From Labia minor (Eukaryota > Arthropoda > Insecta > Dermaptera > Spongiphoridae): a DNA stretch of 64,000 nucleotides. Within the stretch, counting starts at the first letter, position 1. Every line of letters starts with the position of its first letter. Below the pieces are notes generated by a model. It did not search any database. It was given only the letters and a program-made list of their open reading frames with translations, and was not told where the DNA came from. The stretch covers positions 71,700,546-71,764,545 of the forward strand of contig OY720344.1 of the NCBI GenBank assembly GCA_963082975.1. The letters are read 5' to 3'. This document shows, piece after piece, positions 1 to 47,825 of the stretch. The translations under genes were made by a program, and so were the position numbers.

Positions 1-65
1 CTGAGAATCAAACCGAAGAAGGCAACGGGAAACCACTTCGGTATACCATCCCCAGGAAATTCACT

Positions 66-3044
66 ATGACGAGAAACAAAATACAAATGGCCCCCAGTCC
101 CGGGCAGCCCTTAAATGGGCAAGGGGTGCGAAGAATCTCCCGGCTCAGAATAGTGAAAACCAGATTGCGAGTGTGTACATGGAATGTCAGAAGTCTCTTC
201 ATGGCCGGAAAATTAAACAACGCTATCAAAGAAATGAGAAGACTTAAAGTTAAGTTCATGGGAATCAGCGAACTCAGATGGCCTGGTGTCGGTGTTTGTT
301 CTCAGGAAGGAGGAACACTCTATTACTCAGGAAGTGAGAGTGGAGATAGGTTTCATCGAAACGGTGTCGGAATTCTAGTTGACTCGGAGTTCACGAGGTA
401 CGTTAAGAACTTTGTGCCCATATCGGATAGAGTGATGCTGCTACAGATTCATGGACAGCCATTTGACATAAATATCTTACAAGTCTACGCACCTACATCT
501 GATAGTAAATACGATGAGGAAGTGGAAAAATTCTACAACACTTTAGAAAACACTCTAAACTCTCTCAAGAAGAATACCATAAACTTGATACTTGGAGACT
601 TTAATGCTAAAATCGGTCAGGGCAGACGGGGGGATTTGGTCGGCGATTTCGGCTTAGGTGAGTGTAATGAGAGAGGAGACCGGCTCTATGATTTCTGCCA
701 AACTACAGAGATGGTAGTAACTAATACGCTATTTAAACTTCCAAAGCGACGTCTTTACACATGGAAATCACCCAGAGACTCTATTGACAACCAAGAACCA
801 AGTAGGAACCAAATTGATTACATTCTGATAAACAGACGTTTCCGAAATTGTGTTAAAAGAGTCACAACATACCCTGGTGCAGACATAGGCTCAGATCACA
901 ACCCTTTGGTTGCGGACATGGGCCTAGCGTTGAAGTCTGTAAAAAGAAAAAACTGCAACGTTAATATTATTGATACATCAAGATTACAATTTGAGGATGT
1001 TAGGAATGCTGTTATTGATGATCTCAATGGCAAATTAATGAGGATATCTATTGACGATCTTGACGATATAAATACTCAGTGGGCACTGCTGAAAAATGCT
1101 TTGGTGGAGACTGGTTCGCTTCACTTGAGGAGAACACGTACAATGAAGAGGAGGTCGTGGATGACGGACGAGATTTTGGATTTGATGGAAGAAAGGAGAC
1201 TTCTCAAAAATAACATCGTGGAATATAAAAAGATGCAATTCAAAATAAGGAAAGGGATTAAATTAGCAAAACAAATTTGGATGACAGAAAGGTGTGAAGA
1301 AATAGAAGAATTAGTCTCAAAACATGACATGTTTAATATACATGTAAAGGTAAAGGAAATAACTGGACAATTCAGGAGTCGACCACCAATGTCAATACTA
1401 AATGATACCAAAAAACTAGTAACGGACGAAGCTGAACTCATGAAAGCCTGGCAATTGTACGCAGCAAAACTTTTTGAAGATTCCAGAGAGGAAGTTGAAA
1501 TTGATGATTGCGATCCTGAAGGACCAAAAATAATAAAATCAGAGCTAATTCACGCTATTTCAATTGCTAAGAACAAGAAAGCGCCGGGACCAGATGGAAT
1601 CCCAATGGAATTAATCAAATTCATCAATGAAGACAATATAGACCTGGTATTGAAAATATTTAACAATATCTATAACTGCGGTGTGCTTCCAGAGGAATGG
1701 CTGAAATCAACATTTGTTACTATCCCAAAGAAACAATACCCTAAGAATTGCAGTGACTATCGCCTCATCAGTCTTATGAGCCATATGTTAAAGACCTTTC
1801 TTCGAATAATACACGCCCGCATCCGATTAAAATGTGAGTTAGACTTAGATGACTCGCAGTTTGGATTCAGAAACGCCTTCGGTACAAGAGAAGCATTATT
1901 TGGCTTCAATGTTTTGCTTCAAAAATGTCGTGACCAACACAGGGATGTATTTGCATGTTTTGTTGACTACGAAAAAGCCTTTGACAGAATAAAACACACT
2001 AGACTGATTGAACTTCTGTGCGATGCTGGAGTGGACGAAAAAGATATCAGGATTATAAAAAATCTGTACTGGAGGCAATATGCCGTAATCAGAGTAGGAA
2101 AATCCACAACACCGGGAATTGAGATCCAGAGAGGAGTCCGTCAAGGATGCATTCTCTCTCCCCTTTTATTTAATCTCTATGCTGACAGAATTTTTAAGGA
2201 GGCCTTGGAAGAACTGGATATGGGGGTGAAAGTAAATGGCGTGCCAATTAGTACAATTAAATATGCCGACGACACTGTGATCCTGTCTGAAAACATTGAA
2301 GACCTTCAACTACTTCTGAATAAAATTTCTCAAATTGGAACTAAAGCGGGCTTAAACATCAATATAGCCAAAACAAAATTTATGGTCTTTAGCCGCCAGC
2401 CACATGGAAACGCCTCCCTCCACCTCGATAACAAACAAGTTGAACGAGTAAGATCTTTTAAATATCTTGGTTGTATCATAAATGACCAGCTAGACCCGGA
2501 TATCGAAATTAAGTCCAGAATTGAGGCTGCGAGGTCCACCTTCAATAAAATGAGATCCTTCTTCTGTGATGACAACCTAAATCTTAAATTACGACAGAGA
2601 ATGGCCAAATGCTATGTTTGGTCCATTCTCTTATATGGTGTGGAAGCATGGACACTCAAGGTCAGTACGATGAATCGCCTGGAGGCTTTTGAGATGTGGA
2701 TCCTCAGGCGAATGCTGCGAATTCCCTGGGTTGAGAGAGTTACCAACAGGGATGTCTTGAGGAGAGCAAACACACAGCGAGAACTCCTCAACACTGTCAA
2801 ATGCCGAAAAATCTCTTACCTCGGCCACATCTTGAGAGGTAATAAATACCAACTCCTTCAATTAATCCTCAAAGGGAAAATTGAGGGTCGACGTGGACCC
2901 GGGAGAAGACGCCAATCCTGGTTAGGGAATATCAGGGAATGGACCGGCATAAGGAGCGTGGGAGAGCTGTTCCGCACGGCGGAAAATAGAGACGTTTTCG
3001 CCAGAGTGATCGCCGACGTCAGGGAGACCGGACAAGGCACTTGA
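66..3044 (+). CDS. LINE polyprotein: apurinic-like endonuclease plus reverse transcriptase (992 aa, intact)
   Basis: This protein nicks target DNA and copies its own RNA at the nick (target-primed reverse transcription). The N-terminal endonuclease (about residues 35-285) keeps its catalytic signatures: TWNVRSL at 39-44, the SELRW glutamate E69, LGDFNAKIG with D178 and N180, QIDYILINRR with D251, and SDHNP with D277/H278. The reverse transcriptase follows (about 500-780): KKAPGPDGIP at 504-513, motif A FVDYEKAFD with D634, RQGCILSP at 692-699, and the active-site YADD at 733-736. A thumb and C-terminal region runs to 992, with a conserved SYLGHILR block at 917-924 and a basic GRRGPGRRRQSW patch. 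No stop or frameshift interrupts the 2.98 kb frame, so the copy is young or still constrained. The ATG at 66 is the first in frame inside the window; an earlier start outside the window is possible. RTE clade is my reading from domain order and C-terminal block. Confidence 0.93.
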   Translation: MTRNKIQMAPSPGQPLNGQGVRRISRLRIVKTRLRVCTWNVRSLFMAGKLNNAIKEMRRLKVKFMGISELRWPGVGVCSQEGGTLYYSGSESGDRFHRNGVGILVDSEFTRYVKNFVPISDRVMLLQIHGQPFDINILQVYAPTSDSKYDEEVEKFYNTLENTLNSLKKNTINLILGDFNAKIGQGRRGDLVGDFGLGECNERGDRLYDFCQTTEMVVTNTLFKLPKRRLYTWKSPRDSIDNQEPSRNQIDYILINRRFRNCVKRVTTYPGADIGSDHNPLVADMGLALKSVKRKNCNVNIIDTSRLQFEDVRNAVIDDLNGKLMRISIDDLDDINTQWALLKNALVETGSLHLRRTRTMKRRSWMTDEILDLMEERRLLKNNIVEYKKMQFKIRKGIKLAKQIWMTERCEEIEELVSKHDMFNIHVKVKEITGQFRSRPPMSILNDTKKLVTDEAELMKAWQLYAAKLFEDSREEVEIDDCDPEGPKIIKSELIHAISIAKNKKAPGPDGIPMELIKFINEDNIDLVLKIFNNIYNCGVLPEEWLKSTFVTIPKKQYPKNCSDYRLISLMSHMLKTFLRIIHARIRLKCELDLDDSQFGFRNAFGTREALFGFNVLLQKCRDQHRDVFACFVDYEKAFDRIKHTRLIELLCDAGVDEKDIRIIKNLYWRQYAVIRVGKSTTPGIEIQRGVRQGCILSPLLFNLYADRIFKEALEELDMGVKVNGVPISTIKYADDTVILSENIEDLQLLLNKISQIGTKAGLNINIAKTKFMVFSRQPHGNASLHLDNKQVERVRSFKYLGCIINDQLDPDIEIKSRIEAARSTFNKMRSFFCDDNLNLKLRQRMAKCYVWSILLYGVEAWTLKVSTMNRLEAFEMWILRRMLRIPWVERVTNRDVLRRANTQRELLNTVKCRKISYLGHILRGNKYQLLQLILKGKIEGRRGPGRRRQSWLGNIREWTGIRSVGELFRTAENRDVFARVIADVRETGQGT

Positions 3045-44332: not shown

Positions 44333-46660
44333 AAAAATTAAAACGTCTTTATAACATTTGACTAAAAATTGATATTTTGATTTTTATATAATCTATAAAT
44401 CACACATTTCTCTCTTGAAGTATAATGATAATTAATAATTGACTAATGAAACTAAAAACAAAAATAAAGATAATATAATTTACTCATTTTAATTAACGTT
44501 TTAAAAATATTTTTGACTTTTATCAGACGAAAAATAAATTTCTGTCTTTTTAGAAGAAATATATATATATATATATTTTCAAATAAAATAAGACTATTTT
44601 AAAAGGATAAATATTATCTAAATATTTTATTAAATTAATTAAAATGAGAACTTTTATAATAACATTATTTAAATTAATATTTAAAATTAATTATTTTAAT
44701 TATTTATCGAAATATAATTTGAATATTAGATATTAAATTAAAAATGTAAATATAATACTTCTTTGTATTGGAATTGATAGAATTATTAATTTTAAATTCA
44801 TTGTCAGAACTGAATCGACTCCAAGAGCAAAGAGAAGCTCTGAATGAAAATGTAGCATTATATAAATTTTTAAAAATTACTTTTTGCAGTTATTGAAAAG
44901 ATATTGATATAATTTATGGCATATGTTTAAATAGAGGTATATGAGTATATTTTGATATGATTTCATAGTAATCGGTTCAAACAAATTTGAATCTATAACA
45001 TTATAATTTTCCATACATACATAGACATGTAAAATTCTAGTCACTTTTGGATTCTAGAGGTCATGAAACGTAAAGATAAGTATGCAAAAAATTTTAAATT
45101 CTGGGCAATGTGCAGACAAAAACCTTTTTACATTTAGTATATATATATATACAAGAAAAAAAAATTAATTAAAAATCATAAAAATAACAAAATATTTTCT
45201 AATTATTTTTTTTTATTATATTTATTTAGGTGTTTAAAAAAATGTATAAAATGTTGACAAAGTCTTATGAAAATTCTGGTATTTCTTTACTAAAATATAT
45301 TGGACATTAATAATTTTTTTCTCCATTCTCTTTTCTTTCTCACTCACTCTCTCTTCTTTCTTTAATTTTCTTATTAAGAATATAAAGAACAAGAGCATAA
45401 ATGGAAATAAAGTCGACATTTTATGTATTTATCTAATTAAGCCCTCTGAAATTAAGTGTTTATTTCGAAAAGAAAATAGAATCCCGGTAATAACTCGTTT
45501 GTTTTATATTAAAAAATTATTTATTCATTAATTCAAAATTTTAATGAAAATGTATTAAGAATATCATAATAAAATATTTAACAGGTAATTATACTATTTA
45601 ATACAAAGATTCACTAAAATGTATTTAGGTATTTTTATTATTTGGAGGATTTGAAATAAAGAAATAACAATGATAATTTTACATTATTGTATTTACGTAT
45701 ATCTCTACTTTTATGAGTGTTTATTTAATTTCTATAAATATTAAAAATTAAGAATTATTAACATCACAGTGATGAGTAAATAACAAATAAAAATTTACAA
45801 ACAAAATTATTATTGAAATATTTAATAGATTTAAAATTTTACACACAATTAATAGAGAAACCGGAAGTAAGATTTAACTCAAAAACAAAAGTAACATTTC
45901 TTGAAAATTATAACCTAGATTTATCATACCTTCAAGAGAAAAATTTTAATTCATTATAAGTATATTCATTTTTTTATTAAAAATGATCGACCACTAAAAA
46001 CCTAGTCTAACAAATTTAGATTTAACGATTTATATGGAGCGTTCATCGAGAAGAGATAGGAAATGATAGAATAATCGGTAAAAACTGGTTCATCACAAAG
46101 TGAAACGATTTTGTTATTTGATTTTTAAATTAAGATCTATTCAACTTTTTTTATTTATCTTTTTGTTGTGATATTCATCTGCTATGAATACAAAAAAGTA
46201 TTTTTTTTTTAAATTACAGTTCTATTCTTGTTTTTCAATATGTTAACAAACAATCAAAAAGAGAAAATTTGAGTAAGAAAAAAAAACATTTGGTAAAAAA
46301 AAATAGATTTCTATTAAAAAGAACAATATATGTAGCTATATTATATTATTAAAATTTATTATTTATTGTTATTGTATAGTAGATCAAAATAGAAGCTCTA
46401 GTAGTAACCTCTTGATTCAATTTGATAATCTAGTTCCTGCTAATCTCTTAGTCTTTATGTGTTGATTAATGGATTCTCACCAGACTGTATAATTTTAATT
46501 CTAATCCGACATATTACGATGTGTTAGCCTATTAATCAAACTTAATATGAATATAATTTATTTTTTTATTGAAATTCTATAAATTTCTATGTAATCTCAT
46601 CAAATTCTCTCTAGTTTAGTTAAGTTTACAGAAAAATTTTAAATAAAAATACATTTATAA
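42102..46660. other. Long AT-rich noncoding stretch
   Basis: No gene supported. Items seen: a moderately complex patch at about 42590-42750; a patch at 43970-44030 with a CCAAC-GAA-GTTGG hairpin; a poly(T) run of nearly 30 bases at 44300-44328; and a TA array at about 44560. ORFs at 42108, 42896 and 45234 are short and unsupported. Confidence 0.45.
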
Positions 46661-47825
46661 CACAGGCCAACACACATTTTGGTGCCTGCGATTTTTTAAC
46701 TGTTCCTGAGTAATTTTTGGATGCAGAATGTAAAAAAGTTCTCAGATTTTGTCTATCAGATCTAGTTTTTGAGATTTTCTAAAAAAATTGTGTATATAAT
46801 TTACGTTATAACTGTTATAATGTATAATATTACTATTGACAGTTAAAAAAAACAGACACATGGATTTAAGTATTTATTGCAAAAACTTAATTTACATAAT
46901 TACATTAGTCACTAATCACATAAAAATTTTCTTTTAGACGATTTTCTAGAATGGAGTTTACTAGGGCAGTCTCGCTGAAGGCTCCAGCAGTAGTCCGCCA
47001 TCATGTGGCTATCCCATCGTCCTTGATAACGATCTTCCATAGTTTTAATATCCTGATGGAATCTTTCCCCCTGTTCTTCACTACAATCACCTAAGTTTTC
47101 TGGAAAACGATCTAGGTGGCTGTGGAGGTAGTGAACTTTTATACTCATGTTACAGCCGAGAATATGAAAATTTGAAAGCATAGTTTCCACGAATTCTACG
47201 TAATTCTCTGCTTTATGATTGCCAAGAAAATTTTGTACTATTTGAACAAATTAACTCCAAGCGTTAGATTCAGTCTCGTTCATTGATGTGGTGAATTGTG
47301 GATCTTTAACAAGTTGCCTTATTTGAGGACCATCAAATATACCAGCTTTTAGTTTTTCCGTTTCAGGAAATTTACGTGTCAAATACCCAAAACAATTTCC
47401 ATCTCGATTTAAAGCCTTCACAAATTGCTTCATTAGGCCTAGCTTGATATGCAAGGGCGGAAGTAAGATTTTTTCTCTTGAAACCAAAGGTTCGTTGATC
47501 ACGTTTTGTATTCCTTGAAGATGATATCTCTTGAAGGCCAATTTTTGGTAACGCAGTGCTCATTTTTAGCTCTGCTGTCCCAAAGGCACAAAAAACAAGG
47601 ATATTTTGTAAAACCACTCTGCTGTCCAAGGAGGAAGTTAGTCAACACAAATTTGTTGTCCTTTATCAGAAGAAAATATATCATTTAACCTGTAACGTGT
47701 ATCTCACAAACTAGAGCTGATAGAAAAAATCTGATGGCATTTTTGGAATCAGCACATTAAAAACATCTAAAATCAGATGTTAGACTTCCGGCACCAATTT
47801 TTTTTTTTCATTTTGTTGGCCTGTG
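46661..47825 (-). mobile_element. DNA transposon with long inverted ends and a CMC/RAG1-like gene relic
   Basis: The ends are a perfect 12-bp inverted repeat, CACAGGCCAACA (46661-46672 and 47814-47825). The inversion continues imperfectly: GGTGCC lies near both ends, and a 33-base block (46743-46775, CAGATTTTGTCTATCAG and onwards) matches the reverse complement of 47701-47733 with about three differences. Terminal repeats are thus roughly 115-125 bp. TAA stands on both outer sides (46658-46660 and 47826-47828), a possible 3-bp target duplication, though weak in A/T-rich DNA. The interior is filled by a decayed protein gene on the minus strand. At 1165 bp it is probably a deletion derivative of a longer element. 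Confidence 0.8.
46912..47690 (-). pseudogene. Decayed putative transposase of an uncharacterised arthropod family
   Basis: Three minus-strand segments read as one protein. Segment one (47684 down): KDNKFVLTNFLLGQQSGFTK, YPCFLCLWDSRAKNEH. Segment two, after a frameshift (47541-47254): INEPLVSREKILLPPLHIKL, GLMKQFVKALNRDGNCFGYL, FDGPQIRQLVKDPQFT, ending in an in-frame TAA at 47251-47253. Segment three, same frame (from about 47250): NYVEF, LGCNMSIKVHYLHSHLDRFP, SEEQGERFHQDIKTMEDRYQ, MMADYCWSLQRD. I recognise this text as a family that recurs, uncharacterised, in many arthropod genomes. The order D, 21 residues, C(2)C, then H(4)H, then E 17 residues later resembles the C-terminal catalytic/zinc region of RAG1, Transib and CMC transposases. 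The N-terminal half is missing. Function is inference. Confidence 0.75.

Follow-up and report, generated by a model that had tools for sequence, protein, structure and literature searches.

A recently mobile, internally deleted DNA transposon, very probably of Chapaev3 type, in the genome of Labia minor

DDE transposases move DNA by cut-and-paste through an RNase H-like core. Transib elements produce target-site duplications of 5 bp, and hAT and P elements make duplications of 8 bp. The EnSpm, Mirage, Chapaev and Transib transposases have been grouped by a C(2)C and an H(3-4)H motif, as in RAG1 (PMC12730594). The Chapaev3 signature described by Zhang et al. 2014 (PMC4079192) consists of CAC/GTG ends, TWA duplications preceded by A and followed by T, and three motifs, C(2)C, LH and H(4)H. 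The same study describes internally deleted non-autonomous Chapaev3 families, with a recent burst in silkworm, and genes that are mostly single-exon, though not in Merrow and Garfield. Here we describe an element at positions 46661..47825 of a 64,000-nucleotide stretch of Labia minor DNA (G000:C1:71700546-71764545, hereafter the window), for which the 604-Mb genome was searched for copies. It is very probably a cut-and-paste transposon of Chapaev3 type (CMC/Transib clade) that is internally deleted and non-autonomous and has been mobile recently. Elements of this kind are already known, and this one is a well-documented but ordinary representative; it offers a clean case of recent mobility, documented by an empty site and by the near-identity of 12 copies.

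The features of the element are listed below. Motif counts come from an alignment of relatives (A2), whose rows were chosen as open pieces, and are given over the rows that cover each motif.

46661..47825, minus strand: non-autonomous transposon, very probably Chapaev3-type, 1165 bp, with a gene remnant on the minus strand (12 full-length copies, duplications, longer relative L021)
46658..46660, no strand: left target-site duplication TAA
47826..47828, no strand: right target-site duplication TAA
46661..46672, plus strand: left terminal inverted repeat CACAGGCCAACA, perfect, 12 bp
47814..47825, minus strand: right terminal inverted repeat; sister copy L015 differs at one base
46722..46775, plus strand: left arm of the inner inverted block, 54 nt, with 80% complementarity to 47701-47754
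47701..47754, minus strand: right arm of the inner inverted block, 54 nt
47586..47597, minus strand: C(2)C motif CFLC of the transposase remnant (open reading frame; 6/6 rows)
47449..47454, minus strand: LH motif, in PPLHIKLG (open reading frame; 6/7 rows)
47116..47133, minus strand: H(4)H motif, HYLHSH (open reading frame; 7/9 rows)
47065..47067, minus strand: presumed catalytic Glu, in GERFHQD (open reading frame; 7/8 rows)
47651..47653, no strand: internal deletion junction, 3-bp microhomology ATT (comparison with L021)
47641..47643, no strand: approximate place of an 11-bp deletion that removes the second-Asp codon, unique to the window copy among the 12

The perfect 12-bp inverted ends and the TAA on both flanks had been noticed in an earlier reading of the sequence alone (the original prediction) and are present. 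The inner inverted block that it described also exists, but is longer than the 33 bp then proposed. A chance inverted repeat was rejected as a candidate. In 20 replicates of a random first-order model, no G+C-rich 12-mer inverted pairs were obtained at a spacing of 0.8-1.4 kb. The actual window contains further such pairs, inside another repeat family, at 39.8-41.9 kb, and the argument therefore rests on the genomic copies rather than on the inverted ends alone.

When the genome was searched with the two 120-bp ends, as the original prediction had proposed together with an empty-site check, the left end was found at 12 places and the right end at 13, the latter being the 12 copies and L021. 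A DNA search gave 12 full-length copies, the window copy counted, all of them with CAC...GTG termini. In 200-bp flanks, the match at the element boundary was exactly 3 bases long in 12/12 copies and 2, 4 or 5 bases long in 0/12. The duplications were TAA in six copies, TTA in five and CTA in one (that is, 11 TWA and one CTA), and in every copy the base before the duplication was A and the base after it was T. As a background, 3-mer pairs elsewhere in the same flanks matched in 1014/26508 comparisons (3.8%). When the left flank of one copy was set against the right flank of a different copy, a 3-bp match was seen in 50/132 cross-pairings, as the shared target preference predicts. The exact 3-bp duplication also separates the element from hAT (Hermes) and P elements, since 8-bp duplications were not seen.

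Comparison of the 200-bp flanks among the copies yielded a single match, in which two left flanks align at 74% over 61 bp, indicating that the 12 copies are separate insertions. The copies themselves are nearly identical, with mean substitutions from the majority sequence of 0.289%; the window copy has changed more than any other (0.52% substitutions and 19 indel columns).

For 8 of the 12 sites, we built queries in which the two flanks meet at a single copy of the duplication, and 40 of 4142 candidates were scored. With the L014 join, 45 of the 53 rows spanned the joined stretch at 99-100% identity. Both uninterrupted sites that were fetched (2/2) corresponded to the L014 flanks with one TAA and were identical across the 190 bases compared, and both differed from the L014 flanks carrying two TAA. 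These observations establish that L014 inserted into a common repeat and that insertion duplicated precisely 3 bp. The other seven joined sites gave no spanning match at 99-100%, in a search saturated by the common repeat.

The origin of the short form could be read from L021 (G000:C10:8866000-8875500), the longer relative. L021 matches a window-family copy over 746 bp at 99.2% and over 175 bp at 100%, and the 3.9-kb stretch between these two blocks is absent from the short copies; the left end of the window family was not found at L021. Part of the 3.9 kb is a reverse-transcriptase element at L021:3107-5990 (PF00078, E 1.8e-36), which interrupts the transposase gene, has a poly-A end and is flanked by a target duplication of about 14 bp. 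The remainder includes sequence for the N-terminal portion of the transposase, where three C(2)C pairs and the first Asp (FIDSSK) are found. The deletion junction of the 12 short copies coincides exactly with the start of the retroelement in L021, so the short form may derive from a copy that already carried this insertion. We conclude that a single deletion, with 3-bp microhomology at its junction, produced the short form of the 12 copies from an L021-like element, and that this form then spread recently. The view of the element as a deletion derivative was therefore borne out, L021 supplying the deleted part.

The same large deletion is common to all 12 copies, so none of them can encode a complete catalytic triad. 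The sisters L010 and L011 retain the second-Asp codon, out of frame with the C-terminal part, and are without the first Asp. The window copy lost its conserved second Asp through the 11-bp deletion, and of the DDE residues it retains Glu alone. The original prediction had instead assigned an Asp to 47658-47660, 21 residues before the C(2)C motif. This GAC codon lies beyond the deletion junction, in the end sequence, and is non-homologous to the conserved Asp, which in the relative L055 precedes C(2)C by 19 residues. The C(2)C and H(4)H motifs, and the Glu 17 residues past the second His, were correctly placed. The earlier reading is thus supported in substance, with one residue wrong.

In L055, the motifs follow the order D118, D172, CFLC from 191, LH at 239, H348/H353 and E370, so that the second His is separated from the Glu by 17 residues, as in the window copy. 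In A2, the first and the second Asp were each retained in 6/6 rows, the second within C[VGS]DLK (CDLK in L022). Motif losses in A2 were confined to L026, L036 and L034, which belong to the second of the three groups described below. The third group reads HFLNSH at H(4)H, indicating that the outer two His form the pair. From their motif positions, D, D and E are the predicted catalytic residues. The suggestion that the family is a DDE transposase with a zinc-binding insertion is likewise supported, at the level of sequence, by C(2)C, LH, H(4)H and the motif order.

A search based on the gene revealed two further groups besides the window family. Group two has the termini CACAGGCCTACA and CACTGGTCAACA; among the nine loci examined, seven have perfect TWA duplications, L029 pairs TAA with TTA, and L034 has lost an end. 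Group three has the termini CACAGGCCAAC, as in the window family, the outer 11 bp being common to both. Exact ends were scanned for at 21 loci. Both ends were present at five group-three loci, three of them with perfect duplications (L047, L055 and L057, 2.3-2.7 kb; TAA, TTA and, in L057, TAG), while L044 and L053 pair TTA with TAA. In the rest, L062 is a repeat of L044, one end was found at nine loci and no end at six. Copies of the gene without inverted ends would have spoken against the original prediction. None occurs among copies with both ends readable, and the loci of groups two and three at which both ends are readable also have CAC...GTG termini, but the 15 other loci show one end or none. 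Old copies are often degraded, and these loci speak neither for nor against the link between gene and ends. We also noted that all three imperfect duplications (L029, L044 and L053) are TTA against TAA and differ in the middle base only; this pattern could come from recombination between copies or from the repair of a gap containing a mismatch.

Some relatives retain long open frames, as in L044 (518 aa) and L055 (432 aa). Such frames would be expected of a host gene or domesticated protein lying by chance between inverted repeats. However, the 12 near-identical dispersed copies with target-site duplications, together with the empty site, refute this for the window element, and the two further groups with their own ends, as well as the many internally deleted copies, also argue against it. 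We regard this explanation as having a negligible chance of being right. Judged from the 518-aa frame of L044, the gene looks single-exon, as do most Chapaev3 genes but not those of Merrow and Garfield (PMC4079192).

We then compared the element with the known systems. Its closest likeness is to Chapaev3 (Merrow, Garfield, Conan), in the CAC/GTG ends, the 3-bp TWA duplication with its A and T neighbours, the C(2)C, LH and H(4)H motifs, the internal-deletion derivatives and the recent burst in one host. This comparison is by the published feature description. Every feature of the Chapaev3 signature was found, the exceptions being L029, L044 and L053 (TTA with TAA), L057 (TAG) and the one CTA copy. 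The leaning of the original prediction towards the CMC/Chapaev3 side is supported by the ends, the 3-bp duplication between A and T in all 12 copies and the empty site. EnSpm/CACTA, Mirage and other Chapaev elements are similar in having mostly CA..TG ends, duplications of 2-5 bp and the same motif plan (PMC12730594); however, the TWA specificity and the A/T neighbours point to Chapaev3.

The likeness to RAG1 required separate consideration. The RAG1-like residue plan that the original prediction had emphasized is present, but the C(2)C/H(4)H plan is clade-wide in CMC/Transib (PMC12730594); RAG1 likeness is expected of such an element, and so is less surprising than it had seemed. The residue order agrees with the published one-clade view and leaves that view unchanged. 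In a fold comparison, Transib and RAG1 occupied ranks 1-11, with HzTransib and RAG1 as the best matches, although the model was of low confidence, the Glu was unaligned and the Z scores were tied. The predicted structure leans towards an RNase H-like fold. These fold matches, and the common D-C(2)C-H(4)H-E plan (PMC12730594), would suit a Transib or RAG-like element. Such an element is very improbable, since 5-bp duplications were seen in none of the 12 copies and the empty site, too, has 3 bp. A PDB search with the A2 profile gave no match, and there was no significant sequence similarity to Transib or RAG1. The PDB search by sequence, with one family protein, gave a single unrelated chain (E 0.69). 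With the Pfam RAG1 model, neither this genome nor any of 14 control genomes gave a match, and this result is uninformative.

Other database searches were also negative. The window and the family proteins gave only matches below the Pfam cut-offs, and the viral and prokaryote collections (viral_contigs, genome_contigs) yielded 0 confirmed relatives. As no Pfam model attains its cut-off, the family might be a separate, unnamed CMC/Transib lineage outside Chapaev3 with CAC termini, TWA target duplications and the C(2)C/H(4)H plan in common. The clade is indeed described as having several lineages with overlapping signatures (PMC12730594). However, the published Chapaev3 signature (PMC4079192) is the full combination seen here, of TWA with its A and T neighbours, the CAC/GTG termini and the three motifs C(2)C, LH and H(4)H, and we consider a separate lineage unlikely. 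A more elaborate proposal is that the three groups form an undescribed, still-mobile lineage beside Chapaev3, in which the better preserved group three, with the same CACAGGCCAAC termini, cross-mobilises the 1184-bp derivative, and the many group-three copies reduced to the zinc-finger and C-terminal parts repress; we consider this unlikely too. If Chapaev3 membership is confirmed, genes of this family, which Pfam does not recognise, could be relabelled as transposases rather than uncharacterised proteins.

A mechanism can be proposed for a Chapaev3-type element. The N-terminal zinc-finger-like region of the transposase would bind the CACAGGCC-type ends, and the element would be excised by the RNase H-like DDE core, whose helical insertion would bind zinc; both the chemistry and the zinc binding are predicted. 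Insertion at A-TWA-T with a 3-nt stagger would then yield the 3-bp duplication. Since the window copy and its 11 sisters are without the first Asp, they must have moved in trans, presumably by the transposase of another copy. Group three, with the outer 11 bp in common, is a possible source of the enzyme.

At least 17 group-three copies carry the N-terminal and C-terminal parts with the middle gone (for example C9:38041599-38042649, C4:85233057-85233812 and C2:34737635-34738523). Judged by the match boundaries, which are approximate, all 17 are without the first Asp and 16 are without the second. Their 17 boundary pairs are all distinct, which fits many independent internal deletions. The products of such copies could act as repressors. 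At L046, inverted 731-bp arms (L046:1-731 and L046:3413-4143), 99.7% identical, lie around a group-three copy.

The window also contains other repeats. An open frame of 1013 aa at 3-3044 has endonuclease (PF03372) and reverse transcriptase (PF00078) domains and represents a retrotransposon of non-LTR type that is truncated at the window edge. A repeat edge, AATAAGTTGACCTGTGGCCAG, superficially similar to CACAGGTC ends, occurs in seven copies in both orientations (4989, 8283, 32742, 37018, 39877, 40772 and 41898), and belongs to a family of inverted repeats located within about 4.1-8.3, 32.7-33.4 and 36.8-41.9 kb.
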